This document shows, piece by piece, positions 17,535 through 36,035 of a stretch of DNA of 39,470 nt. This DNA is from Clostridia bacterium (lineage in GTDB: Bacteria > Bacillota > Clostridia > Christensenellales > Borkfalkiaceae), in contig JAFTQB010000007.1 in NCBI GenBank assembly GCA_017462985.1, positions 1-39,470 on the forward strand. Reading direction: 5' to 3'. A program made the translations under genes and the position numbers. Every line of letters begins with the position of its first letter. Position 1 is the stretch's first letter. Under the pieces are notes generated by a model. It was not told where the DNA came from. It made no database searches and saw only the letters and a list, made by a program, of their open reading frames with translations.

Positions 17535-20435
17535 TTATTTCGATTTCGCTTTGGAGAAGAAGTAGTAGAAGATCGCATACGCTACCATATTGAAAAGGTA
17601 AACGATAGGGATCGCTACGTAAGCCAACATATTTGCAGGTTGCGTGAGGGGTACTTGCAGGAACACGGCTACCATCGATACGATCAAGATACTGATTACG
17701 AACAGAACGATGGCTGTAAAAATATAAGAAGCGTGTTTGCTGCGCCGAGCCTTTGCTTGATAACCGCGGGCAAACAGGATCGCCGTTACGATGAAGATCA
17801 CAAATCCAATCGCCGTAGGGATCAACGGATAATAAAATTCTATTCCCAAAGGATCTTTTAAAAAGAATACGATCAAACTTTCTACGATAAGGAAACAGAA
17901 AGTGATCAGCGCCGCCTTAAACATAGCCGCTCCCTTATTGAAAGTAGCGGCGGGGGCGCTTTCCTTTTTTTGCCCCGACTGTGCGTGCGGGGTGGCAAAA
18001 GTCCCTGCCGTATTAAGGTGAATACCGTCGCGTTGCGCCCTTGCTTGCAAATCGTCGAATTGCGAAGCCGTCGTTTCAAAAGCTTGCGCCGTAGTTTGCA
18101 TTGATTGCGCCATCGTGGCAGTTTGCGTTGCCGCTTGCATCGGTTGCATATAGGGCTGTTGAGGCTGAGGAATAGGCTGTTGTTGGGCGTATGCTGCTTG
18201 CTGTTGCGCTTGTGCAAAAGCCGCTTCGCGCTGTTGAAGCTCGGCAAAACGCTTATCAAGTTCTTCTTGTTTTGCTTTCAAAGCGTCGATAAATTGCGTA
18301 TTGCTCTGCGCCGTTTGTGTTTTTGCCGCTTCAAATTCTTCCTGTTGCTTTTTGAACGCCGCAACCGTTGCGTCGAATGCTTCGCGATCCGCTTGCAGAG
18401 CGGCTTTATCCGCTTCGAATTTCGCTTGATTATCGTTTAAATGTTTCAGTTGCGCCGTATATTCTCCGTATTTATCGGCATATTCGAATTGCTGAATAGA
18501 AAGGGCGTTCTTTCTTGTGATAAATTCCAGCTGCTGTTGATTAAACAGCGCCGTCCGCGTAGCAAGCTCCGCCTGTTGTTGATTAAAAAGCTCCTGCGCG
18601 TATTTGAGTTGATCCCGTTCCCGTTGTAATGCCGCTTGCGCTTCCTGCAATTCCGTTTGAGATCGGCTCAAAGTTTCTTTGTCTTCAGTGGTGCGGTTCT
18701 GATCTTCGCCCACGTTGCGTTGCTGTTCTTCCAATGCGTATTCGCGTTGGGTCAGTTCGTATTCAAGTTTTTCAAGGCGTTCCTTTTCGTCCGTCAACTG
18801 TTGTTGCGTTTCTTGCAGTTGCGCCTGTTGCAGTTCGAGGGCTTCCTTTTCTTCTTCCCACGCCGCGCGCGTTTGCTCAAAAGCAGTACGCTCGTCAATG
18901 AGTTGTTGTTGTGCGGAAGAAAGCTCCGTTTCTCTGCGGTCGAGTTCCTCGCGTTCGGCGGTGGTATCCGTTTGCAACAACGCAAGCGTTTGTTTCAATT
19001 CTTCCGCTTCTTCAAAAAGCGTTTCTACTTGCGCCGACTTTTCCGCAAGGGCAACGCGCAAGTCGTTCACCGTTTGCGTTTGTTCGTCAAGCTGTGCTTT
19101 TAAAGTATCGTACCGTTCGTCCCATTGTTCCGCGGCGGCGTTCTTGCGCTCTAATTCTTCTTTCAAAATCCCAAGCGCGCCTTCCTGCGTTTCTAAAAGC
19201 GTCTTTAAAGAATCTAATTCCTCTTGTTTTTCTTGAAGTGTCGCTTGCGTTGCGGCGAGTTCTTCCTTGACGGCTTCTACCGCTTCTCCGTTTTCTTGTT
19301 CCGCGTTCAACGCCCGAAGTTTTTCTTCCAATTCCTCTCTTTCGGCTTCCAATCGCGTTTGCTCGGAAGTAACCTTGGAAAGCAGTTGATAATATTGCGA
19401 AGTCTTTTCTTCTAAATCCATTTGTGCGGAAGCGAGGGCGGTTTCCCGTTTTTCAAGCTCGCTTTGCATTTCCAAAAGGGCGGCTTCACGTTCTTGTAAT
19501 CGCGCTTGAAGCGCGAGCGTTTCTTCCAACGCTTCCGTCGCGGCGTTTTCTTTCATCGCGGCGAGTTCGGATTTCAAAGCCGCGTATTCCTGTTGCAACG
19601 CTTGCAAAGAATTTTCCGTATCTTTCAGTTCTTCCTCTTGCGAAAGGATCATCTGTTGGGATTTTTCCAACAACGCGGCTTTTGCCGCCAAATCTTCTTC
19701 CAATGCGCGGATAAGCTCTTTCGCGGCAGTAAGTTCTTCTTCTTTTTGTTTCAGCAAAAGTTCTTTCGCATCCAATTCGCCTTGTTTTTCACTCAAAGCG
19801 AGTTCTTGGCGTTCCAGCTCCGCTCTTTGTGCGTTGATCTTTTCGTTGTATTCTCCCAAATCGCTTTTTTGCGTGGTGAGGTCGGCGCTCTGCGTTGCGA
19901 TCAAAGAGCGTTCCCGTTGTAATTCGTTGCGGAGCTTTTGCAGGTTGAGTTTTTCTTCTTCCAACGCCGCTTCCCGCGCCGCCAAAGAGCGTTTTAGATC
20001 TTCCAGTTCCTGTTGTTTATCCGTGATAAAAGAAAAATCGTAGTGAGCGTCGCCGTCAGAAATCAAGCTATCGATGATCGTGCGCGAAAATTCCCATTCG
20101 GAAAGATTTTTTCTCGCCACTACGCGCCCGTCTTCCGTTAAATGAAAATACTTTCTTCTGCCGCCGTTGGAAAATTCTCCCGCGTACGATTGCACGTAAC
20201 CGAGCGATTCCAAACGCTTTAAAGCGCTGTAAAGGGTGGGGGGCTTTAATTTATAAAGACCTCCGCTCTTGCGCTCGATCTCGTCCATGATATCGTAGCC
20301 GTATTTATCCTCGTCGTACAAACAACGCAAAATGATCGTGTTGATGTGTCCGCGAATCAAATCGGAGCTGATATCGAGAATTTGCTCGTCGCCGCCGGTC
20401 ATGCCGACTTCTTCGCCGTATTCCGTCTTTTCCAT
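17535..20435 (-). CDS. PadR winged helix - long coiled coil - four-helix membrane protein
   Basis: A 966-residue protein of unusual build. Residues ~22-130 are a PadR-type winged helix (RGHINTIILRCLYDEDKYGY, PPTLYSALKRLESLGYV, GGRRKYFHLTEDGR). Residues ~135-700 are almost pure charged heptad sequence (repeated E/Q/L/A/R), a coiled coil that would extend for roughly 80 nm if continuous. Residues ~700-790 are Gln/Ala/Pro-rich. The C-terminal ~130 residues hold four hydrophobic helices (about 840-860, 868-889, 904-926, 936-958). It looks like a membrane-anchored DNA-binding tether (inference). Start ATG 20435 has AAAGGAGAAAGCT before it. It has its own consensus promoter and a palindrome between promoter and gene, fitting autoregulation. 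Most PadR proteins are 100-200 residues. Confidence 0.85.
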   Translation of the reverse strand: MEKTEYGEEVGMTGGDEQILDISSDLIRGHINTIILRCLYDEDKYGYDIMDEIERKSGGLYKLKPPTLYSALKRLESLGYVQSYAGEFSNGGRRKYFHLTEDGRVVARKNLSEWEFSRTIIDSLISDGDAHYDFSFITDKQQELEDLKRSLAAREAALEEEKLNLQKLRNELQRERSLIATQSADLTTQKSDLGEYNEKINAQRAELERQELALSEKQGELDAKELLLKQKEEELTAAKELIRALEEDLAAKAALLEKSQQMILSQEEELKDTENSLQALQQEYAALKSELAAMKENAATEALEETLALQARLQEREAALLEMQSELEKRETALASAQMDLEEKTSQYYQLLSKVTSEQTRLEAEREELEEKLRALNAEQENGEAVEAVKEELAATQATLQEKQEELDSLKTLLETQEGALGILKEELERKNAAAEQWDERYDTLKAQLDEQTQTVNDLRVALAEKSAQVETLFEEAEELKQTLALLQTDTTAEREELDRRETELSSAQQQLIDERTAFEQTRAAWEEEKEALELQQAQLQETQQQLTDEKERLEKLEYELTQREYALEEQQRNVGEDQNRTTEDKETLSRSQTELQEAQAALQRERDQLKYAQELFNQQQAELATRTALFNQQQLEFITRKNALSIQQFEYADKYGEYTAQLKHLNDNQAKFEADKAALQADREAFDATVAAFKKQQEEFEAAKTQTAQSNTQFIDALKAKQEELDKRFAELQQREAAFAQAQQQAAYAQQQPIPQPQQPYMQPMQAATQTATMAQSMQTTAQAFETTASQFDDLQARAQRDGIHLNTAGTFATPHAQSGQKKESAPAATFNKGAAMFKAALITFCFLIVESLIVFFLKDPLGIEFYYPLIPTAIGFVIFIVTAILFARGYQAKARRSKHASYIFTAIVLFVISILIVSMVAVFLQVPLTQPANMLAYVAIPIVYLFNMVAYAIFYYFFSKAKSK

Positions 20436-21405: not shown

Positions 21406-22458
21406 ATGAAAATTATCGGATTGAGAGGAGAAGAGATAATATTAGGCGGTATGACGGCGGCAAAAGGGTTTTTCCGCGAGGACGGGGAAGAAACGATCTT
21501 CGTTTATACGAACAAAGCGTTTTCTTCCGCATATTTGCCAACGCCGCACGCTTTAAAAAGCGAGGCGGTGCAATTTTCTCAAGCGAATAAAAAATCTCTC
21601 CGCCGTGGGATTGTCATCTCCCGTTTTGCTACGGATACGATGCAAAGCGGCGCAAAGCAAGTCGTTGCCTGTCGTTTGTCGTCGGTGGAAAAAACTTTTT
21701 CGATCAAAGCGGACGAGCTTTATGCGGTTTCGCTTGGGGAGCTTTTTGAAAACAGAAGGGAAAAAACTTCGGAATATTCTTTTGCTTACCGTTTTTTCTT
21801 GGGTGACGATTATCCTTGCGTGATCGGCGGTTCGTTTTTTACGCACCTCATTGGGGCGCAAAGAAAGAAGATTTTGCTTTTAACGACGGACGTTCGTATC
21901 GAGGACGAACTTTTAAAAAAGACTTTGGAAGCTGAGCGAAAAGATACCGTGGATCTGCTCGGCGGCGGTTGCGGCGTCAACGATTGTATTTGCATGCTCG
22001 CAAGCGGCGAAGCGAATAACGCAACGATATGCGTTCGCGATACCGAATGGAGCAAGTTTTCCAAGGCGCTAGGTTTTGTTTTATCTTCTCTTTGCAAAAT
22101 GGCGGTCGTCGGTGAAAGTACGGAAAAAGCTGTATTTTTTAAAATTGTCGGGGCGACTTCGCGAAAGGTAACGCGGGCGATTTCGCTCAAGCTTTCGGAG
22201 CGGTTTTCTTTAAAAGGGGAGGAAGCGTTTTTATCGGCGGTTTTTTCTGCTATAGGAGATATATCCGTGCCTATCACGCGCGAGCGCGCGAATATGATAA
22301 TGAGTTCCGATCAAGGAAAAATGCAGATCGTGGAAAGCGGCCGCGTGTTGCCGTATTCTTCCGAGCTGTTTGATAAGATTTTAAACGGAGGAAACGCCGT
22401 TTTTACGATCGATCTTGGCGAGGGGAATTATTCGGGCGGAGTTTGGATTAGAAGATAA
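21406..22458 (+). CDS. ArgJ-like protein lacking catalytic residues
   Basis: A 350-residue protein that aligns along its length with ArgJ (ornithine acetyltransferase), though diverged. Matching segments: RGIVISRFATDTMQSGA, FTHLIGAQRKKILLLTTD, VNDCICMLASGEA, WSKFSKALGFVLSSL, GESTEKAVFFKIVGA and FTIDLGEGNYSGGVW. Key residues are gone: the self-cleavage/nucleophile Thr of the ATML motif is Lys155 (KKIL), the STGVIG oxyanion motif is SLGELF (109-114), and the DGDTSTND segment is GGGCGVND (186-193). It is shorter than ArgJ (~400). It should not self-cleave or transfer acetyl groups (inference). It starts two bases after the thioesterase stop, without a clear ribosome site, and sits just before the carA-carB operon. 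Confidence 0.65.
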   Translation: MKIIGLRGEEIILGGMTAAKGFFREDGEETIFVYTNKAFSSAYLPTPHALKSEAVQFSQANKKSLRRGIVISRFATDTMQSGAKQVVACRLSSVEKTFSIKADELYAVSLGELFENRREKTSEYSFAYRFFLGDDYPCVIGGSFFTHLIGAQRKKILLLTTDVRIEDELLKKTLEAERKDTVDLLGGGCGVNDCICMLASGEANNATICVRDTEWSKFSKALGFVLSSLCKMAVVGESTEKAVFFKIVGATSRKVTRAISLKLSERFSLKGEEAFLSAVFSAIGDISVPITRERANMIMSSDQGKMQIVESGRVLPYSSELFDKILNGGNAVFTIDLGEGNYSGGVWIRR

Positions 22459-22777: not shown

Positions 22778-23836
22778 ATGAAAAGAAAAAAAGTGTATTT
22801 GACGTTAGAAAACGGAAAGGTGTTCCAAGGCTATCGTTTCGGCGCGGACGGTGAAGCGACGGGCGAGATCGTCTTTACGACGGGTATGGTGGGGTATGAT
22901 AAAACGCTCACCGATCCCGCGTATTATGGGCAGATCGTGGTGCAAACCTTTCCCTTGATCGGTAATTACGGGGTGATCGCTTCCGAAATGGAAAGCGAAA
23001 AATCTTTCGTTTCCGCCTACGTCGTACGGGAAATTTGCGACGTTCCTTCTAACTTCCGTACGGAAGAAACGCTGGAAAGCTATTTGAAAAAACAGGGCGT
23101 TATCGGGATTTACGGCGTCGATACGCGCGAATTGACTAGGATCATTCGTTCCGCAGGCGTGATGAACGCGCGCATTTCTTCAAAACCGCTTGAAAATCCC
23201 GCGGAACTTTCCGCTTATAAAATTAGCGGCGCGGTAGAAGCGGTCGCACCGACGGAGCAAAGCGTTTGCGGCGACGAAAACGCAAATCTTTCCGTGGCGT
23301 TTTGGGATTTCGGCGCGAAAGAGAGCGAAGTGGCGTTTTGGGCGGAAAACGGCTTGAAAGTCGTTCGCGTTCCCGCAAAAGCGACGGCGGAAGAAATTCT
23401 TGCGCTTTCTACAAACGGCATCGTTATATCCGAGGGCCCCGGCGATCCGCAGGAAAATCAAGCGGCGATTGAAGAAATCAAAAAGCTTGTTGGGAAGAAG
23501 CCGATTTTTGCAGTAGGCTTGGGGCTTCAAATGCCTGCGATTGCGCTCGGTGGTAAAACGGTGAAGATGAAGTACGGGCATCGCGGCGGCAATCAGCCCG
23601 TGAAATATTTGGAAAGCGGCAGGGTGTACGTATCCTCGCAAAATCACGGCTACGAAGTGCTTGCGGATTCCGTAACGGGCGGCAAGATCACTTTCGTCAA
23701 CGTCAACGACGGCGGCGTAGAAGGCGTTGAATACGAAGCGGCGAATGCAATGGGCGTACAATTCGCGCCGTCTGCGTGCAGCGCTGCGCTCGAACCCAAC
23801 TTTTTAACGAACAAATTCATTGAAATGATCAAATAA
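22778..23836 (+). CDS. carA: Carbamoyl-phosphate synthase small subunit with inactive glutaminase site
   Basis: A 352-residue CarA: N-terminal small-subunit domain (about 1-145) and class I glutamine amidotransferase domain (about 165-350). The structural motifs are kept (SEGPGDP, GKTVKMKYGHRGGNQPVK, SSQNHGYEV). The catalytic ones are not: the GICLGHQ nucleophile motif reads AVGLGLQ, with Gly247 for Cys269 of E. coli; HPE of the triad reads APS (Ala330, Ser332); and the Ser47 contact in TDPSY is Ala48. So it cannot release ammonia from glutamine (strong inference); the complex would need free ammonia, as mammalian CPS I does. GAAGG lies 8-12 bases before the ATG. carB follows 11 bases later. 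Confidence 0.9.
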   Translation: MKRKKVYLTLENGKVFQGYRFGADGEATGEIVFTTGMVGYDKTLTDPAYYGQIVVQTFPLIGNYGVIASEMESEKSFVSAYVVREICDVPSNFRTEETLESYLKKQGVIGIYGVDTRELTRIIRSAGVMNARISSKPLENPAELSAYKISGAVEAVAPTEQSVCGDENANLSVAFWDFGAKESEVAFWAENGLKVVRVPAKATAEEILALSTNGIVISEGPGDPQENQAAIEEIKKLVGKKPIFAVGLGLQMPAIALGGKTVKMKYGHRGGNQPVKYLESGRVYVSSQNHGYEVLADSVTGGKITFVNVNDGGVEGVEYEAANAMGVQFAPSACSAALEPNFLTNKFIEMIK

Positions 23837-23847
23837 GGAGAAAGACA

Positions 23848-26800
23848 ATGCCTAAGAGAAGTGATATTAAAAAAGTATTGGTAATCGGCTCCGGTCCGAT
23901 CGTGATCGGACAAGCCGCGGAATTCGACTACGCCGGCGCACAGGCTTGCCGCGTATTGAAAAGCGAAGGCATCAACGTCGTTCTCTGCAATTCCAACCCT
24001 GCGACGATCATGACGGACAGCGCGCTTGCGGATGAAATTTATCTTGAACCGCTCACGGAAGAAACCTTAAAGCGTATCATTATTAAAGAAAAGCCCGATA
24101 GCTTGCTTGCTTCGCTTGGCGGGCAAACGGGTCTTACGATGGGCTGCAAGCTCGCAAAATCAGGCTTCCTTGCCGCGCACGGCGTGAAGCTTATCGGTAC
24201 GAAGCTGGACGCAATCGACCGTTCGGAGGATAGAGAACTTTTCAAAGAAACGATGGAAAAGATCCATCAGCCTTGCGTTCCGTCTGATATCGCGTATACG
24301 GTGGAAGAATGCGTTGCCATCGCAAATAAGCTCGGTTATCCCGTTATTATCCGTCCCGCTTATACGCTAGGCGGCGCGGGCGGCGGCGTTGCATATACGG
24401 AAGAAGAATTACGCTTGATTTCGCATAACGGCTTGATGCTCTCGCCCATTACGCAGGTGCTTATCGAAAAATATATCGCGGGCTGGAAAGAGATTGAATT
24501 TGAGGTGTTGCGCGATAGCGCGGGCAACGTTTTGACGGTTTGTTCGATGGAAAACGTCGATCCCGTCGGGATCCACACGGGCGATTCGATCGTCGTTGCT
24601 CCCGCCGTAACTCTTTCGAATAAAGAATACTCTATGCTTAGAAGCGCGGCGCTTGCAATCATCAGCGAGCTTGGAATCGAGGGCGGTTGTAACGTTCAAT
24701 TCGCGCTTAACCCCGATTCTTTCGAATATTCCGTTATCGAAGTAAATCCCCGCGTCAGCCGCTCTTCTGCGCTCGCGTCCAAAGCGACGGGATTCCCGAT
24801 CGCTAAGGTTACTTCCAAGATCGCGCTCGGTTATACGCTCGACGAGATCCGCAACGACGTTACGGGCACTTCCTTTGCTTGCGTTGAACCGACGATCGAC
24901 TATCTCGTGGTAAAAATGCCCAAGTGGCCTTTTGATAAATTCCTCTATGCAAAGCGTGAGCTGGGTACGAGAATGAAAGCGACGGGCGAAGTGATGTCGA
25001 TCGGAACTTCGTTTGAAATGGCGATCATGAAAGCGGTGCGCGGCGCGGAAATTTCCACGAGCACGATGAATTATAAAAAGTTTGCGGATTGGACGAAAGA
25101 ACAGCTTTTGGCGCAAGTTGCCGTTATGTCCGACGAACGGATTTTCGCCGTATACGCCGCGCTTAAAAAGGGCGCGAGCGTCGACGAAGTGTTCAATATC
25201 ACCAAGATCGACAGATGGTTCTTGAATAAGTTTAAAAACTTGATCGCATACGAAGAAACACTCGCAAACGAAAAGCTTACGAGAGATCTTTATAACGAGG
25301 GCAAGCGCCTTGGGTATTTGGATAAAGATATCGCGGCGTTCAGCGGTCAAAAAATTCCTTGCAAGAAGAAAGCCGTTTATAAAATGGTAGATACCTGCGC
25401 AGCGGAATTTGAAGCGAAAACGCCTTACTTTTATTCGACGTTCGACGAATTTGAACACGACGAAGCGAAACCGTTCGTGGATAAGAGCGATAAAAAGCGT
25501 ATCGTTGTTATTGGTTCGGGACCCATTCGTATCGGTCAAGGGATCGAATTCGACTATTCCTCCGTGCATTGCGTATGGACGCTGAAAGAGCTTGGATACG
25601 AAGTGGTGATCATTAACAACAACCCCGAAACGGTTTCTACCGACTTCGACACGGCGGATAGATTATATTTCGAACCGCTCACGCCCGAAGACGTCCAGCA
25701 CGTTTTGGACGTGGAAAAGCCTTACGGCGTAATTATCACCTTCGGCGGTCAAACGGCGATCAACCTTTGCTCGTATTTCGATACGCACGGCATCCGTATC
25801 CTCGGAACTTCCGCCGACAGCGTAGACAGAGCGGAAGACCGCGAGCGTTTCGAAGCGTTGCTTGAAAAATATGCGATTCCCCGCCCGAAAGCGATCACCG
25901 TTATGACGAAAGAGGAAGCTTTGGCGGCGGCGCAAAAGCTCGAATATCCCGTCTTGCTTCGTCCGTCCTACGTTATCGGCGGTCAAAATATGACGATCGC
26001 GTTCACGGAAGAGGACGTATGCAGATATATGGACGTTATCTTGGCGCAGGGCATCGAAAACCCCGTGCTGTGCGATAAGTATTTGATGGGCACGGAATTG
26101 GAAGTAGACGCCATTTCCGACGGAAAAGACGTGCTGATCCCCGGCATTATGCAGCATATCGAACGCACGGGTATCCATTCGGGCGACTCGATCGCGGTTT
26201 ATCCTCCGTATAATCTTGACGATACGCTTTTGGAAAGAATTATCGAAGTTTCCACTCAGCTCGCGTTGGAATTGAAAACGAAAGGGTTGATCAATATTCA
26301 GTATCTGATCTATCGCGGACAGCTTTACGTGATCGAAGTCAATCCCAGAGCTTCACGTACCGTTCCGTATATTTCCAAGGTAACGGGCGTGCCGATGGTA
26401 GAGCTAGCAACGAAAATCATTGTCGGCGCGAAGCTGAAAAAACTCGGCTACGGAACGGGGTTATATCCTTCCTCGCCGTACGTGGCGGTGAAAGTGCCCG
26501 TGTTCAGCTTTGAAAAGCTTAACGACGTCAACTCTCAGCTCGGTCCGCAAATGAAATCGACGGGCGAAGTGCTCGGCATCGGCAAAACAATGGAAGAAGC
26601 GATGTTCAAAGGGCTTGTTTCCGCGGGCTTTAAGATGTGCCATCCTTCCGAACGCCGTCCTGTAGGCGTGTATATGACCGTCAACGATCAAGATAAATTA
26701 GAGCTGTTGTCGATCGCGAAAAAGTTTGCCGATCTCGGCTGTACGATGTACGCGACGAAGGGCACGGCGAAAGTGATTTCCGATCTTGGAATCGATTGTC

Positions 26801-27903
26801 AGATCGTCGATCGACTCTCCGCAACCGATACGGTGAAAAAGCTGATGGATGAAGGCAAGATCGACTACGTTGTGTATACGGGTAAAACGGATATCGAATC
26901 GATCAACGACTTCATCAACTTGCATCACCACGCGATCTTGCTCGGTATCACGGTGCTCACGGCGTTGGATACGGCGAACGTGCTTGCGGATATTATCGCG
27001 AGCAAATTTACGGAAGACAATACCGAACTTGTCGATATCAACGCGTTGAGAAGCGAAAAACTCAAATTGTCGTTCACGAAAATGCAATCTTGCGGAAACG
27101 ATTATATTGTATTCGATAACCGCGACGGCAAGATCACTTGCCCCGAATCGATTGCGGTAAGCTATGTGATTCCCCATTACGGGATCGGCGGCGACGGAAT
27201 CGTACTCATCGAAAATTCCACGGTTGCGGACGCAAAAATGCGCGTTTTCAATAAGGACGGCTCGGAAGTATCGCTCGGCGGCAATCCGATCAGAATGGTG
27301 GGAAAATATCTCTACGAAAAAGGGATCGTAAAAAAGAACGATATGACGATCGAATCTTCGGGACGCGTTTACGAAGTAAAGGTGTACTCGATGACGGGGA
27401 AAGTCAATTCCGCAAGCGTAAACCTTGGAAAAGTAGAGCTTTCGGGCAAAAAGATTCCTTGCGTATGGGATGAAGAAAGCATCGTAGGAAAAACGATCAA
27501 TATCGGCGGGCTTGAATACCGCGCGACGCTCGTTAATGTGGGAAATCCCCATTGCGTTATTTTCAGCGATAAAGTGGACGCGATCAACGTGCCCGCGATC
27601 GGCCCCGATTTTGAAAACAGCGAATACTTCCCCGAGGGCGTGAATACAGAATTCGTGCGCGTCGTGAATAAAGTAACGATCAAAATGCGCGTTTGGGAAA
27701 GAAAGAACGGCGAAACCTGGTCTTGCGGTACGGGCGCGGCAGCGGCAGTCGTAGCGGCGGTGCTCGGCGGCTATTGTGAAAAGGATACGAACGTTACGGT
27801 CAAGCTTCGCGGCGGCGACCTTACGGTAAATTATCATTCGAACGGCGAAGTGGAAATCCTTGGCAACGTGAAAACGGTGTACGAGGGAGCTTTGGAAATC
27901 TGA
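23848..27903 (+). CDS. carB: CarB-DapF fusion: carbamoyl-phosphate synthase large chain joined to a diaminopimelate epimerase-like domain
   Basis: A 1351-residue protein. Residues 1-~1065 are a complete CarB: two ATP-grasp halves, the first with NSNPATIMTD, RPAYTLGGAGGG and NVQFALNP..VIEVNPRVSRSSALASKATG, the second starting near KRIVVIGSGPIRIGQG, and the MGS-like allosteric domain at the end. Residues ~1072-1351 are a DapF domain, beginning LSFTKMQSCGNDYIVFDN with no linker. DapF needs two Cys; the second is present (SCGTGA, Cys1293), the first (CGNG of NADGSE...CGNG) is GGNP with Gly1144. So the domain may bind but should not epimerise diaminopimelate (inference). No in-frame stop or ribosome site separates the parts. 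AAGGAGAAAG precedes the ATG. Frameshift artefact is unlikely since both parts share one frame. Confidence 0.92.
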   Translation: MPKRSDIKKVLVIGSGPIVIGQAAEFDYAGAQACRVLKSEGINVVLCNSNPATIMTDSALADEIYLEPLTEETLKRIIIKEKPDSLLASLGGQTGLTMGCKLAKSGFLAAHGVKLIGTKLDAIDRSEDRELFKETMEKIHQPCVPSDIAYTVEECVAIANKLGYPVIIRPAYTLGGAGGGVAYTEEELRLISHNGLMLSPITQVLIEKYIAGWKEIEFEVLRDSAGNVLTVCSMENVDPVGIHTGDSIVVAPAVTLSNKEYSMLRSAALAIISELGIEGGCNVQFALNPDSFEYSVIEVNPRVSRSSALASKATGFPIAKVTSKIALGYTLDEIRNDVTGTSFACVEPTIDYLVVKMPKWPFDKFLYAKRELGTRMKATGEVMSIGTSFEMAIMKAVRGAEISTSTMNYKKFADWTKEQLLAQVAVMSDERIFAVYAALKKGASVDEVFNITKIDRWFLNKFKNLIAYEETLANEKLTRDLYNEGKRLGYLDKDIAAFSGQKIPCKKKAVYKMVDTCAAEFEAKTPYFYSTFDEFEHDEAKPFVDKSDKKRIVVIGSGPIRIGQGIEFDYSSVHCVWTLKELGYEVVIINNNPETVSTDFDTADRLYFEPLTPEDVQHVLDVEKPYGVIITFGGQTAINLCSYFDTHGIRILGTSADSVDRAEDRERFEALLEKYAIPRPKAITVMTKEEALAAAQKLEYPVLLRPSYVIGGQNMTIAFTEEDVCRYMDVILAQGIENPVLCDKYLMGTELEVDAISDGKDVLIPGIMQHIERTGIHSGDSIAVYPPYNLDDTLLERIIEVSTQLALELKTKGLINIQYLIYRGQLYVIEVNPRASRTVPYISKVTGVPMVELATKIIVGAKLKKLGYGTGLYPSSPYVAVKVPVFSFEKLNDVNSQLGPQMKSTGEVLGIGKTMEEAMFKGLVSAGFKMCHPSERRPVGVYMTVNDQDKLELLSIAKKFADLGCTMYATKGTAKVISDLGIDCQIVDRLSATDTVKKLMDEGKIDYVVYTGKTDIESINDFINLHHHAILLGITVLTALDTANVLADIIASKFTEDNTELVDINALRSEKLKLSFTKMQSCGNDYIVFDNRDGKITCPESIAVSYVIPHYGIGGDGIVLIENSTVADAKMRVFNKDGSEVSLGGNPIRMVGKYLYEKGIVKKNDMTIESSGRVYEVKVYSMTGKVNSASVNLGKVELSGKKIPCVWDEESIVGKTINIGGLEYRATLVNVGNPHCVIFSDKVDAINVPAIGPDFENSEYFPEGVNTEFVRVVNKVTIKMRVWERKNGETWSCGTGAAAAVVAAVLGGYCEKDTNVTVKLRGGDLTVNYHSNGEVEILGNVKTVYEGALEI

Positions 27904-27924: not shown

Positions 27925-28566
27925 TTGGAAGCATATTACGAAGAAAGCGCCACGAATCAAAAAGCGAAAAGCCAAGGCGTGATCTATAAAATTTTGCACG
28001 TCGTGCAGATCGTATTCATCGTGTTGGCGGTGTTTTTTCTGCTGATCGCGCTCAATACGATTCCCTTGCAACCCGACGGCTCGGAAGGAAGCCAAGAAAA
28101 TTATCAAATGCTCTTGTCGCTTTGTTTGTCTTCGGTTTTTTGGGGCGTATCGTTCATTCTATTTGCAGTGCTCGTATTTTTCATGAAACGCAGATTTAAC
28201 GTCAGCTACGATTATCTGTTCGTTTCGGGAGAGCTTAGAATTGCAAAGGTGTTCAATCAATCCAAGCGCAAGCGCGTTTGTATCCTCGATAGCGTTTCCA
28301 TTCTACAGGTCGGGGATATGGAAAGCGCCTCATACGATCGTTTTCGCGCTACGCCGGGGATGAAAGAAGTGATTTGCACGCCCAATCTCACGGCGAGCGA
28401 GGGGAAATTCTTTATGTATGTCCTCGCGCAACACGACGGGTTGAAGAAACTGTACGTGCTCGAATGTCGCGAAGAATTGCTCGTAAATATGATGCAATTT
28501 TTACGCCGCGATATTTTGGATAGAGATTATATCCCGCAGGCAAGAAAAGCCGCGCAAAGCGTATGA
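27925..28566 (+). CDS. Two-helix membrane protein of unknown function (DUF6106-like)
   Basis: A 213-residue protein starting at TTG with a perfect AAGGAGGG five bases before. Two membrane helices (about 23-45 and 68-91) are followed by a cytoplasmic-type beta-rich domain with GELRIAKVFNQSKRKRV, which from memory resembles the DUF6106 family of Clostridia; I am not certain. It lies between carB-dapF and the cysteine desulfurase gene, which overlaps it by four bases (ATGA). No catalytic motif seen. Confidence 0.75.
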   Translation: MEAYYEESATNQKAKSQGVIYKILHVVQIVFIVLAVFFLLIALNTIPLQPDGSEGSQENYQMLLSLCLSSVFWGVSFILFAVLVFFMKRRFNVSYDYLFVSGELRIAKVFNQSKRKRVCILDSVSILQVGDMESASYDRFRATPGMKEVICTPNLTASEGKFFMYVLAQHDGLKKLYVLECREELLVNMMQFLRRDILDRDYIPQARKAAQSV

Positions 28567-31381: not shown

Positions 31382-33061
31382 ATGAAAAAAATACAAAAGT
31401 TAGGAGCAGTAGCATTGGCGGCAATATGCTGCGCGGGCGTATTCGCTTTTCCCGCTTGTTCTAAACAAGGGGAACAAGTCGATGAAACCAAAACCCAGCT
31501 TCACGTGGGCACGTTCAGCGGCGGCGTAGGCTATTCTTGGCTTGAAAACGTAGAAAAGCGTTTCGAGCAAGACTACGCAAACGTTTCGTTTGAGCCAGGG
31601 AAAACGGGCGTGCAGGTCTGGATCGATCCGCAGTCATCGTATTCGGGGATCGCGCTCAGCCAAACGATGAAAACCAACCAAAACGCCGTGTTTTTCGTGG
31701 AACAAGTGTATTATACGCAAATGGCGAAATCGGGCAACTTGTTGGAAATCACCGATATCGTACAGAGCACCGATCGTGAGGGCGGCTCGTTGGAAAGTAA
31801 TATCCTTGATTGGCAGCTTGACGAATTGAAGGTGAACGGCAAATACTACGCATTGCCGCATTATCAATCGTTTACGGGCGTCGTGTACGACGTAGACCTT
31901 TTCGAAAAAGAAGCGCTTTATCTTTCCGCTGATCCCGATAACGGTAACGGCGGCTTCGTTTGGGATAGAGAGGAAGAAAGATCTCTCGGTCCCGACGGCA
32001 AAACAGGCGTAGACCCTGAAACGGGCTACGACTATTCTGCGGACGACGGCTTTCCCGCAACCTATGACGAATTAAAAGCGCTCTTCTATTATATGGAGGA
32101 CGAAAAGGATATTACGCCTTTTATCTTCCCCGGTCAACACAAAACCTATTTAGCACGTTTGTTTAAAGGCGTTGCGGAAGCCTATAACGGCGATTTGGGC
32201 ATGAGAGTACAGGCGACTTTCGATAGCAACGGCAAACAGCTCGATATTGTAACGGGCTTCGATAATAACGGCGACCCGATCATCGAACAAAAAGTGATCA
32301 CGCCGGAAACGGGCTATCTTGTTCGTCAGCTCGCAGGGAACTATTACGCGCTCGATATTGTAGAACACGTCCTCGATAACGAAGACTATTATACGAAGTC
32401 GTCGCGGCAGGGCAGCTCCTCGCAAACGGACGCGGAAGAAGAATATATTTATTCCTCGCTCGAAGGCGAGCCGATCGCATTCCTCTTGGAGGGTAGCTAT
32501 TGGGAATCCGAAGCCCGCGAGAAATTCACCCAGTCGGTGATGGATATCGGCGCAAAGGCGGAAAACCGTAATTTTGCTTTCTTCCCGTTTCCGCAAGGCG
32601 GCAACGGCACGACGATGACCGATAGTGCCAGCGCGTATTCCTTTATCAACGCGCGTATCAAAGACGATACCAACCTCGTGAATACGGCGAAAGAATTCCT
32701 CGCTTATTGCTATCAGGAACAGGAATTGGTGGAATTTACCAAGGAAACGGGCGTTAGTATCGGCGTTCAATACGAGCTTGGCGACGTTTATAACGAGCTG
32801 ACTAACTTCCAACAATCTTGTTGGGACAGTAGCAGAGGCATGGGATATTCCGCATTGGTTTCTTCCAATCCCACCTATACCACCTCGCAAGCGAAATTCG
32901 CGTTGCTTTCCAACTCCAACTACTACGACGTAGTCATCGATAGCGAACCGTATAAAACGATGTATGCGGCGATGAAGGAAAACGGAAAAACGGCGGCGCA
33001 ATACTTCCAGGCAATGTGGATTGATTCGGGAACGTGGACGGGTACTTATTATAAACAATAA
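31382..33061 (+). CDS. ABC importer solute-binding lipoprotein (carbohydrate type)
   Basis: A 559-residue extracellular binding protein. A signal peptide ends in a lipobox with Cys26 (AFPAC), so it is tethered to the outer face of the membrane. The body has the extended size and motifs of large family 1/8 sugar-binding proteins (TQLHVGTFSGGVGYSWLENVEKRFEQ at the mature N-terminus is typical; aromatic-rich DYYTKSS and WESEAREKF follow). AGGAGGAATTT precedes the ATG. The two permeases encoded at 36371-38187 should form the channel. Substrate is probably an oligosaccharide (inference). Confidence 0.88.
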   Translation: MKKIQKLGAVALAAICCAGVFAFPACSKQGEQVDETKTQLHVGTFSGGVGYSWLENVEKRFEQDYANVSFEPGKTGVQVWIDPQSSYSGIALSQTMKTNQNAVFFVEQVYYTQMAKSGNLLEITDIVQSTDREGGSLESNILDWQLDELKVNGKYYALPHYQSFTGVVYDVDLFEKEALYLSADPDNGNGGFVWDREEERSLGPDGKTGVDPETGYDYSADDGFPATYDELKALFYYMEDEKDITPFIFPGQHKTYLARLFKGVAEAYNGDLGMRVQATFDSNGKQLDIVTGFDNNGDPIIEQKVITPETGYLVRQLAGNYYALDIVEHVLDNEDYYTKSSRQGSSSQTDAEEEYIYSSLEGEPIAFLLEGSYWESEAREKFTQSVMDIGAKAENRNFAFFPFPQGGNGTTMTDSASAYSFINARIKDDTNLVNTAKEFLAYCYQEQELVEFTKETGVSIGVQYELGDVYNELTNFQQSCWDSSRGMGYSALVSSNPTYTTSQAKFALLSNSNYYDVVIDSEPYKTMYAAMKENGKTAAQYFQAMWIDSGTWTGTYYKQ

Positions 33062-33080
33062 ATTAAAAGGGGAAATCATT

Positions 33081-36035
33081 ATGACAAAAAGAATGAAAAC
33101 GATCGCTACTTTACTTGTCGCTTGCGCCTTAACGACGGCGGCGGCTGTGACGGTAAGCCTTACGCCCGATAATCTCGCGTCGGCAGCCGTAACGACTGAT
33201 TATTATACCCAATACGATATTGAAGACGTAGTGGAAACAATGGAAGATATTTCGTTGCATTACGGGCAGACCGATTTGGTAGAAGGAACGACCTATGAGA
33301 TCGACGGCTCGGAAGAAGCCGAAATGGGCAATATTTGGTTTATTCCTCCCGCAACGAATCAAGTAGCAAATACGGGTTTCCACGTGGAATTTGCAAATGG
33401 TACTTCCGCGTTGTTAAGCTTCCGTATGAAGTATAATGCAAACTTGAAATATCGTTTTCGGTTTGGCGATACTAACACTTCGCAATGGGTAACGACAAGT
33501 AAGGGATATTTTGCCGATTTAAACCCGTCTGCAACCAAACTAACTGTTCGCGGGTGGTGTACGAAAGATGATGCCGCCGATACGGCGGGAGGTGCAAGTT
33601 CGGATGCGCTGTATAACGCCGCGTCGAATGTGAATCTTAGCGAAACGCTTACCGATGGGGACGATCTGATCGTTACGCTCGGCGTATATACCAACGCCAA
33701 TAGTAAAAATCAAGTGGTTCTCAAGCTTGAAAAATACGCAAATGGAACAACTACGACTGTATTAAACTGTGATATCGAGGATCAGTATACCTCTTATAAC
33801 ACGATGATAGCAGGCACAGGTACCGTAAAACACGGGGTTGTTTTGAACGGCGCAACAGATACTGCCGGTTCTTTGGAAAATGTGCTCGGCGGCGTTAAGC
33901 GCCCGATTATTGCAAGCGAATACGATACTTCCGCAAAAGACGGAGAATATTATGCAAATGATAGCGCGAGCTTGGCGCTTCCCGAGGGATATACCTTGCA
34001 GGAGGAAAGTAAAACGCTTGTTGCAGGCGAAAATAAAATTCCCGTATATTATGCAATGACCTATTACGGCTCATCGATCAAAGTGCCTTGTACGATGACG
34101 GCAACGGCGAGTGCATACCGCATTACCAATATCGAAGATTTGGCAACTTCGATTGATAGCGATGGGGCGCTCTCCGTTGGCGAGCTAGCCTTGAAAACGG
34201 GGGTAAATGCTTTGGTAGCGGGAGAAACCTATACGACTGACGGTACTACGCTCGGCAGCACAACGTTCAGTAGCGCAACGAAGGGCAATATCTATCTGAA
34301 AGGGATACAAAATACGGGCTTTATTCTGCCGATCGAAAAGGAAACCTTGTTGCGGTTTAGAATGAAGTACGATTCCGATCAAATATACACTTTCATGTTC
34401 TCCAACGACGCTTATACCAATGGTATTGCGGTCGCTGCTTCAAGCGGATATTTTGCACAATTCCGTCCGACGTTTCTGCAAGTTCGATCTAAAACGGCAA
34501 ACGGTAGTACAGCGGATACAGCAGGTGGGGGTACCGCAGACGGATTGTATACAGTTAAAACTTTGAATAACGATTTTACAGCTTATGACGGCAAGGACCT
34601 TATCATCACTTTCGGCTCTTATCCCACCTCCGAAGGTAAAAATCAAGTCGTTTTAAGAGTAGAGTGCGAAGAGAATAATACAGTTACGTTGGTCAAAGAG
34701 ATCAATCAAGTGGATACTTATTCGGATATATACAAAGTCGGCAACGATACGAACTATATGGGGATGTATTGGAACGGCGGCACTTCGGGCGTAGTATACG
34801 AAAACGAAATTGGCGGCGTAAACCGTCCGTTGATCGCAAACGAGTACGATACTTCTGCAAAAGACGGAGAGTATTATGCAAATGATAGCGCGAGCTTGGC
34901 GCTCCCCGAAGGATATACTTTACAGAACGAAAACGCAACGCTTGAAGCGGGCGAAAACAAAATTTCCGTATATTATCCAATGACCTATTACGGCTCATCG
35001 ATCAAGGTGCCTTGCTTCATGATGGTAACGGCGAAGAGTCCGTATACGGTTACGCTGCAAAAAGCGGACGGTACGCAGATCCAAACGCAATCGTTCAACG
35101 GCGAAAGCAGCTATTTGTTGCCCGAAAAAATCAATGAAAACGTTACCTTTATCGGTTGGCTTACGGAAGATAACAAGCTGTATCCCGCAGGTTATACTTA
35201 TGCGGTAACGGAAAGCGTAGTGCTTACGCTTGCAGAAGCGGCGTTCTCGCTTGATGACGGCGCGGCGGTGCGCGTTTCCAACGCAAACAGCGGCTATGGC
35301 GGGATGCGATTCACGGCACAGTTGCAATCGGCTACGGTTTCCGAGATTCTCGCTCACGGCAAATGGATCGGCGCGATCTTGCCCACCGATTCGCTTGGCG
35401 ACGACGGGCTTTTCACCGAAGCAGATCTTACGACGGTAACGGAAACGAACAGCGGAAAAGAGATCGGCGAAGATAACAGAGAATCGGTTATCGGCGGCGT
35501 TGACGGATACTTTGCTTTAACGAGTATTTTGGTAACCAATTATAACCGCGAATTTTCAGCAATGTCTTATCTCACGATCACCTACGACGATGATGCGAAA
35601 ACGACAAAATCCCTCTATACGGCGTACGATGAAGCGAAGAACAGCCGTTCGGTGGTGCAAATTGCTTATATGGCGAAAAACGATACTGATACCGATTATA
35701 CGGACGCGCAGGACAAAATCCTTGACGACTATATCCAATCGGTCGTGATCATCGACGCAAACGGCGCAGTGCCTACAACGATTACGTTTACTGTGCAGAG
35801 TGAAGAATATACCGTTGCAACGAATAACGCATATCAAGTTAGCGGGTATACTGCGGAAAGCGGGTTCCCGCTGACGACGGGCAAGGCGTATACGACGAGT
35901 GCGGACGGAAAGATTCATATTCCCGTGATCTTGGTAAGAGATGGGGTGTGGACGCGTAAGCAGACGACGGCAACGCTTACCGCTGCCGAGGACGGAACGA
36001 ATACCTATACCGTGGAATGGTATACTCAAAGCTGA
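33081..36035 (+). CDS. Large secreted protein with duplicated ~308-residue domain
   Basis: A 984-residue protein with an N-terminal signal peptide (TKRMKTIATLLVACALTTAA...). Two homologous domains (about 48-343 and 345-652) share RMKYN/D, ADTAGG, GKNQVVL/KNQVVL and an almost identical end (EYDTSAKDGEYYANDSASLA). They may be jelly-roll/lectin-like (inference). A short TVTLQKADG...GWLTEDNKLYPAGYTY module (about 655-710) resembles Listeria-Bacteroides-type repeats; the rest contains the AAVRVSNANSGYGGMRFTA motif seen in clostridial surface proteins. No LPXTG, dockerin or C-terminal membrane helix. Start 33081 has AAAAGGGGAAA before it. It lies between the binding protein and permease genes, so it probably helps to capture the transported glycan. 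Confidence 0.8.
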   Translation: MTKRMKTIATLLVACALTTAAAVTVSLTPDNLASAAVTTDYYTQYDIEDVVETMEDISLHYGQTDLVEGTTYEIDGSEEAEMGNIWFIPPATNQVANTGFHVEFANGTSALLSFRMKYNANLKYRFRFGDTNTSQWVTTSKGYFADLNPSATKLTVRGWCTKDDAADTAGGASSDALYNAASNVNLSETLTDGDDLIVTLGVYTNANSKNQVVLKLEKYANGTTTTVLNCDIEDQYTSYNTMIAGTGTVKHGVVLNGATDTAGSLENVLGGVKRPIIASEYDTSAKDGEYYANDSASLALPEGYTLQEESKTLVAGENKIPVYYAMTYYGSSIKVPCTMTATASAYRITNIEDLATSIDSDGALSVGELALKTGVNALVAGETYTTDGTTLGSTTFSSATKGNIYLKGIQNTGFILPIEKETLLRFRMKYDSDQIYTFMFSNDAYTNGIAVAASSGYFAQFRPTFLQVRSKTANGSTADTAGGGTADGLYTVKTLNNDFTAYDGKDLIITFGSYPTSEGKNQVVLRVECEENNTVTLVKEINQVDTYSDIYKVGNDTNYMGMYWNGGTSGVVYENEIGGVNRPLIANEYDTSAKDGEYYANDSASLALPEGYTLQNENATLEAGENKISVYYPMTYYGSSIKVPCFMMVTAKSPYTVTLQKADGTQIQTQSFNGESSYLLPEKINENVTFIGWLTEDNKLYPAGYTYAVTESVVLTLAEAAFSLDDGAAVRVSNANSGYGGMRFTAQLQSATVSEILAHGKWIGAILPTDSLGDDGLFTEADLTTVTETNSGKEIGEDNRESVIGGVDGYFALTSILVTNYNREFSAMSYLTITYDDDAKTTKSLYTAYDEAKNSRSVVQIAYMAKNDTDTDYTDAQDKILDDYIQSVVIIDANGAVPTTITFTVQSEEYTVATNNAYQVSGYTAESGFPLTTGKAYTTSADGKIHIPVILVRDGVWTRKQTTATLTAAEDGTNTYTVEWYTQS
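33918..34090 (+). repeat. Internal repeat, copy 1
   Basis: 173 bases that recur at 34842-35014, exactly 924 bases (308 codons) later and nearly identical, with mostly silent differences. Confidence 0.85.
34842..35014 (+). repeat. Internal repeat, copy 2
   Basis: Second copy of 33918-34090. The high identity here compared with the diverged remainder of each 308-codon unit suggests recent gene conversion or a functional linker. Confidence 0.85.

Follow-up and report, generated by a model that had tools for sequence, protein, structure and literature searches.

CarB fused to a DapF domain without its first catalytic cysteine: a conserved architecture with a putative regulatory or structural role

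The fusion gene and the closest described systems

Two described systems are the nearest precedents for the protein treated here, in which CarB, the large subunit of carbamoyl-phosphate synthase (CPS), continues into a domain with the fold of the diaminopimelate (DAP) epimerase DapF. Its gene lies on contig JAFTQB010000007.1 of a Clostridia bacterium; the whole analysed stretch of 39,470 nucleotides is called the window. In human CPS1, an allosteric enzyme, the glutaminase-like domain is kept whole with its Cys replaced (Ser294) (PMC4655335). As in the window, a CPS keeps an entire domain after replacement of the catalytic Cys. However, this domain is the ancestral CPS glutaminase and not a foreign epimerase, and CPS1 is regulated by N-acetylglutamate in the MGS-like domain. 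The DapF of Escherichia coli without both catalytic Cys was reported to be inactive, while still binding and activating RppH (PMC4227774). This is a precedent for the DapF fold as a non-catalytic regulator of a partner enzyme, but DapF and RppH are separate proteins, the partner is a different one and wild-type DapF is also the epimerase of the cell. The conversion of a catalytic into a non-catalytic accessory domain is of a known kind; the architecture described here comes with a clear before-and-after series. In the window the first catalytic Cys of the DapF domain is replaced by Gly, and the best reading of our analysis is that Cys-lost domains of this type are a non-catalytic, regulatory or structural part of CarB, which probably binds DAP.

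The CarB-DapF fusion was absent from the open-access literature searched, mostly titles and the starts of abstracts, with subscription journals, preprints and automatic annotations outside the search; the excerpt of PMC9026213 contains no such fusion either. The initial annotation, made from the letters of the window, knew of no such fusion. This agrees with the literature searched, but within the order the fusion is no rarity and occurs in many gut Clostridia. It is real and conserved and, as far as searched, undescribed. The features concerned are the following.

22778..23836, plus strand: carA, small (glutaminase) subunit of carbamoyl-phosphate synthase, directly upstream (NCBIfam)
23848..27903, plus strand: carB-dapF fusion gene, 1351 amino acids in one frame without internal stop
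23848..26991, plus strand: CarB part, residues 1-1048, two CPSase synthetase halves and the MGS-like allosteric domain
26992..27054, plus strand: junction, residues 1049-1069, the usual CarB C-terminal tail followed by DapF, placed by alignment
27055..27900, plus strand: DapF-fold domain, residues 1070-1351, TIGR00652 over its cut-off and Foldseek matches to solved DapFs
27277..27279, plus strand: codon of Gly1144 at the position of the first catalytic Cys (C83 in Corynebacterium glutamicum, C75 in Anabaena)
27724..27726, plus strand: codon of Cys1293, the second catalytic Cys, kept

The CarB model TIGR01369 covers residues 2-1048 with 1387.5 bits (cut-off 1027, NCBIfam), and the MGS domain PF02142 was found at residues 952-1038 (Pfam). 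The product of carA, which ends 11 bases before the fusion gene, scores above each cut-off with PRK12838 (372.4 bits) and TIGR01368 (359.6 bits) (NCBIfam). The fusion protein thus has what a CarB requires, namely two synthetase halves, the MGS domain and a carA partner; it is complete like other CarBs and differs from them by the extra C-terminal domain. This domain is matched by TIGR00652 over residues 1075-1349 (235.6 bits, cut-off 114.65, NCBIfam) and by the Pfam family DAP_epimerase (PF01678, 155.2 bits). It resembles described DapFs in its fold, both lobes, the active-site residues and the second Cys, and differs from them by Gly1144 (context SLGGNP; WSCGTG around Cys1293) and by its attachment to the C-terminus of CarB. 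The initial annotation had described a complete CarB and a DapF-like domain in one protein and had named both residues, all of which agrees with the open frame, the family matches and the alignment. It had also described a passage from CarB to DapF without linker. The frame is indeed continuous, but about 20 residues (NTELVDINALRSEKLKLSF) stand between the MGS domain and the DapF fold. Because four CarBs from the same clade that are not fused end at this point, with the same tail (...NTELVDIN.MR), the segment looks like the ordinary CarB C-terminus.

A structure model of residues 931-1351 gave a mean predicted local distance difference test (pLDDT) of 89.6, and its best Foldseek match was 2otn (E 4.8e-35, template modelling score 0.86 by target length). 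In this model of MGS and DapF domains the junction is poorly ordered (pLDDT blocks of 64 and 55, predicted template modelling score (pTM) 0.66). With the CPS half included (residues 549-1351), the junction blocks reach pLDDT 87-92 and pTM rises to 0.83, both models being built on shallow alignments of 44-45 sequences and without an inter-domain error map. Since the junction is ordered only when the CPS half is present, the models suggest packing of the DapF domain on CPS.

Spread and origin of the fusion

The initial annotation proposed a search for proteins with both domains. In relatives the fusion was read in 115 genomes of 17 family codes, all of the same order; the set is not random and was chosen from long frames and listed matches. 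At least 480 CarB residues stand upstream of the domain in 108 of them, and in the other seven a contig or locus end lies closer to the domain, in G071 and G364 so close that the fusion was called from sequence. In the window's family, 160 of 201 genomes searched gave a DapF match, many of them with a second match in a frame of about 1354 residues. When 297 genomes of the order were searched with the fused domain, such frames appeared in many families. Separate carB and dapF genes in relatives, which the initial annotation had named as a refutation, are not the rule: the window's genus code comprises 29 of the genomes, of which 23 have the fused type, three a stand-alone DapF only and three no DapF match. 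These 23 include G071, whose contig ends 45 residues before the domain, and two genomes showing just 239 and 310 upstream residues. Of 80 named loci, which are the matches listed and no census, 47 are fused by the criterion of more than 200 residues upstream of the domain. Ruminococcus sp. FC2018 is one of these 47, and both Cys are kept in 18 of them. The closest named record among the matches listed is a Clostridia metagenome-assembled genome (MAG) from water deer caecum (L268, 80% identity). Three fusions, all without the first Cys, stand on MAG contigs labelled Treponema or Spirochaetaceae (L294, L313, L318), which is either lateral transfer or mis-binning. A near-identity search of a plasmid collection gave no match.

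All fused CarBs fall into one starred clade (100*) in a FastTree tree of the CarB part (128 rows). Nineteen CarBs of the set are truly unfused; 13 stand outside this clade and six are nested in it, namely four of family code f4 and the long-branched, unsurely placed G229 and G211. G458 entered the tree as unfused, but is a fused gene whose contig ends inside the start of the DapF domain. For the DapF domains, a 93-row IQ-TREE tree needs one label change, so that the fused domains form one group, with a support of only 8 for the dividing branch; a 278-row FastTree tree needs two. A single origin of the fusion is probable from these trees. An origin as copies of the fused domain is not supported for the stand-alone DapFs in the window's family, because most of them group separately (17 rows, support 91, not starred, 93-row tree). 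How the fusion arose is suggested by gene neighbours: carA, carB-dapF and dapL follow each other in Ruminococcus sp. FC2018 (L288), and carA, carB-dapF and pyrG in L073 and L066. A separate dapF-pyrG-dapL cluster exists in L349 of the window's family, to which L350 is syntenic.

Catalytic cysteines, meso-DAP routes and the ligand pocket

With Cys positions read from the alignment, both Cys are kept in the fused domain of 38 of the 115 genomes, and at least one is lost in 77 (the first in 75, six of which lack the second as well, and only the second in two). For 37 of the 38 two-Cys genomes no other DapF was detected by hidden Markov model search, some of these genomes being incomplete (G312 69%, G283 73%). 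A stand-alone two-Cys DapF is present in 52 of the 77 Cys-lost genomes and lacking in 25. The association between the state of the fused domain and a separate two-Cys DapF is strong when kinship is ignored (Fisher p 2.7e-12). The meso-DAP dehydrogenase Ddh was found over the cut-off in 20 of these 25, including the window's genome; G382 and G206, outside the Ddh test, show DapF fragments. Among 80 genomes tested for DapL and Ddh, a two-Cys DapF occurs in 37 of 39 with DapL and without Ddh, but in 0 of 22 with Ddh and without DapL.

Routes were tested in 19 of the 37 genomes with a lone two-Cys fused domain: 14 have DapL without Ddh over the cut-off and five have both. These 14 need an epimerase, for which the fused domain is the only candidate. 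Hence, a two-Cys fused domain without another DapF is probably a working epimerase. Since no DapF besides a two-Cys fused domain was found in many relatives, the ancestral fusion protein was probably bifunctional, and the window's protein is probably a derived, catalytically dead form.

The window's genome contains Ddh (438.7 bits), no DapL over the cut-off, dapB, and a MurE with DNPR, which we take to mark the DAP type. A separate intact dapF, which the initial annotation proposed to look for, was not found in this genome (77% complete). Loss of the DAP pathway wherever a Cys-lost domain stands without another DapF is not supported, because dapB and murE are mostly present and Ddh accounts for most of these genomes. 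In 57 genomes searched, dapB was over the cut-off in 54 (not in G152, G192 and G228) and murE in 51, the other six giving weaker or partial matches.

The CarB tree requires at least five changes between intact and broken domains. Genus code f6/g80 comprises one genome with an intact domain and four with Cys-to-Ser and a separate DapF. The genus code of the window's genome (g1) shows DapL with stand-alone DapF and Ddh as almost mutually exclusive, with G080 and G197 matching both routes and G142 neither; this is a swap of the meso-DAP route between close species.

The pocket was compared at 11 non-Cys positions, ten DAP contacts and one glycine contacting the second Cys, placed by alignment to the DAP-bound structure of C. 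glutamicum (PMC5296763) and the aziDAP-bound structure of Anabaena (PMC12039745). All 11 are kept in the window's protein, whose N1084, N1135, N1146, N1233, N1266, E1284, R1285 and T1295 correspond to N15, N74, N85, N159, N194, E212, R213 and T223 of C. glutamicum. Outside genus g7 all 11 are kept in 56 of 67 domains without the first Cys. N1135, G1145, N1233, N1266, E1284, G1294 and T/S1295 are present in every one of these 67, R1285 in 66, G1296 in 65, N1084 in 63 and N1146 in 62. For comparison, the full set is found in 38 of 38 intact fused domains and in 79 of 83 stand-alone DapFs, all 83 of which have the first Cys. In the 69 one-Cys domains the mean entropy of the active site is 0.31, versus 1.41 for the rest of the domain, and none of 10000 random site sets was as low.

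Substitution rates point in the same direction. The ratio of nonsynonymous to synonymous rates (dN/dS) of the Cys-lost fused domain is 0.02-0.15 in the 16 genome pairs, out of 18, for which it could be computed. In 13 pairs both genomes have both forms; the fused domain has a lower dN than the stand-alone DapF in all 13, and a lower dN/dS in all 12 that allowed this ratio to be computed. Many pairs approach saturation at synonymous sites, certain genomes enter more than one pair and the stand-alone DapFs are assumed to be orthologous, so that dN is the safer comparison, and neither is a formal test. Within the fused gene, dN of the DapF domain is 1.1 to 6.3 times that of CarB (25 pairs), in Cys-lost and intact forms alike. 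The 93-row tree shows a shorter end branch for the fused domain in six of seven genomes of the window's family with both forms, and the opposite in G025. Judged by these rates, the Cys-lost domain is under strong purifying selection and not decaying.

Explanations for the retained domain and their meaning

The account we favour, with a probability of about one half, starts with an old, probably single, fusion of carB with an adjacent and working dapF in an operon of the type carA-carB-dapF-(pyrG)-dapL. In the window's lineage the meso-DAP route would have been replaced, with a stand-alone DapF taking over in some species and Ddh in this one. The first catalytic Cys of the fused domain, once dispensable, would then have been lost and the domain retained with its ligand pocket as a non-catalytic, DAP-binding regulator of CPS. 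It would most likely bind DAP (LL- or meso-) without turnover and close on it as DapF does. Replacement of either Cys by Ala leaves the C. glutamicum DapF with almost no activity, and the enzyme closes on its ligand (PMC5296763). By analogy with these mutants, epimerase activity is very probably absent in the Gly1144 protein. Since the C. glutamicum mutants are nearly inactive, yet the E. coli double mutant still binds RppH, the Gly1144 domain should bind DAP without epimerising it. Closure beside the MGS domain would give a conformational signal tuning carbamoyl-phosphate synthesis. Such tuning would match the supply of UTP/CTP and UDP-sugars to that of cell-wall and lysine precursors, a role with which the neighbours pyrG and dapL fit.

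The initial annotation had offered a ligand sensor or a modified epimerase. The former is compatible with our results and somewhat better supported than before by the kept active-site residues, the purifying selection and the dispensable epimerase activity; DAP sensing by the Cys-lost domain is plausible, though we infer it. The latter is disfavoured as far as DAP epimerase is concerned, given the Ddh of this genome and the nearly inactive Cys-to-Ala mutants. That a fused epimerase was turned more than once into a DAP sensor of CPS, by Cys loss after meso-DAP came to be made elsewhere, is a more tentative proposal.

Several results weigh against the favoured account, besides the shallow alignments of the structure models. 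The nested unfused CarBs indicate that the domain was apparently lost outright about three times inside the fused clade, so CarB can do without it. In genus g7 the pocket has decayed (none of eight domains without the first Cys keeps all 11 positions), and six domains without the first Cys have lost the second too; some lineages thus keep the domain without needing an intact DAP pocket. Three genomes (G097, G374, G142) have a Cys-lost fused domain and neither a stand-alone DapF nor Ddh. In G097 and G374, where DapL is present and Ddh and another DapF were not found, either genes were missed or an unknown epimerase exists. A dapF beyond the contig edge of G097 is not supported, as no DapF is encoded in the 348 bases upstream of pyrG-dapL. 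In G251 a two-Cys DapF occurs twice, once fused and once separate. Finally, with only three independent contrasts on starred branches and five in total, significance is out of reach. When the contrasts are set against 'no other route', about 2.1 of three go the expected way, 0.0 the opposite way and 0.8 show no difference; for 'no stand-alone DapF' the values are 1.4, 0.0 and 1.6.

The main rival is a purely structural role: during a long time as a fusion, CarB would have come to depend on the Cys-lost domain to fold, to stay stable or to make oligomer contacts, and the pocket would persist only because it joins the two lobes. As a general explanation it is possible but doubtful; in genus g7 it is favoured. 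The junction ordered in the model with the CPS half agrees with it, as does the retention of domains with altered pockets, in g7 and in the f24/g61 domains without both Cys. In the f24/g61 pair G353/G451 the dN/dS of the domain equals that of CarB (0.043 each). However, stability would not obviously keep charged ligand residues at the low entropy found in the active site, and the domain was dropped in about three lineages. Both catalytic Cys are lost in the fused domains of L071, L072, L138, L139 (f24/g61), L168 and L080.

It is unlikely that the one-Cys domain is a different enzyme with DAP or a relative as its substrate, be it a one-base isomerase, a dehydratase or an exchange catalyst. The second Cys is kept in 69 of 75 domains without the first, and in related racemases Thr in place of one Cys is reported with dehydratase or one-way activities (review PMC8142540). 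In the fused domains, however, the replacement varies (33 Ala, 27 Gly and 9 Ser in 69) with no single new catalytic residue, six domains have lost both Cys, and the scanned neighbourhoods show no gene pointing to another substrate. Still less probable is recruitment of a stand-alone DapF to the CarAB complex as a hetero-dimer with the fused domain. C. glutamicum DapF is a dimer (PMC5296763), and a stand-alone DapF accompanies the broken domain in 52 of 77 genomes. But 19 genomes with Ddh and without DapL keep a Cys-lost domain with no other DapF found, and dN/dS is low there too (G000-G126, 0.059, G000 being the window's genome).

Neutral decay of a dead passenger on its way out could draw on the apparent domain losses in the fused clade, but is close to refuted by the low dN and dN/dS values. 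The largest clade without the first Cys, which holds 56 fused rows of seven family codes versus five unfused rows in the CarB tree, also speaks against it. An assembly or frame artefact, named as a possibility in the initial annotation and conceivable for a contig of a 62-contig draft genome, is rejected on the recurrence of the same junction across many genomes, including the Ruminococcus sp. FC2018 record, which is not labelled as MAG.

Other genes of the window were also inspected. Upstream of carA, 21406-22458 (plus strand) encodes a 350-residue protein that matches ArgJ, in its C-terminal part, at residues 158-347 (Pfam 67.9 bits; NCBIfam 63.2 bits, far under the equivalog cut-off of 351), the N-terminal half of the protein being without any match. 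Directly downstream of the fusion gene, 27925-28566 (plus strand) encodes 213 residues whose match to DUF6106 is borderline (25.1 bits, cut-off 25). A protein of about 966 residues, an unusual length for a PadR regulator, is encoded at 17535-20435 (minus strand), with a PadR-type DNA-binding domain at residues 34-106 followed by weak SMC/coiled-coil-like matches. Two large overlapping open reading frames (559 and 1004 amino acids) at 31382-36035 (plus strand), matched neither in Pfam (E 0.001) nor in NCBIfam (E 1e-10), precede two binding-protein-dependent transport permeases (36371, 37306).

For annotation, the fusion means that in 14 tested genomes the only DAP epimerase candidate lies inside a gene likely to be called carB, and that a call of active DapF on Cys-less fused domains is probably false. 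The order offers a natural series of one protein around the loss of catalysis, with the domain intact, without one Cys, without both, or dropped, and each state can be read against the other meso-DAP route of the cell, for example in f6/g80. This makes it testable in relatives how enzymes become regulatory domains. If the proposed conversion into a DAP sensor is true, the fused domain would tie the synthesis of pyrimidines and arginine to the levels of cell-wall and lysine precursors in these bacteria.

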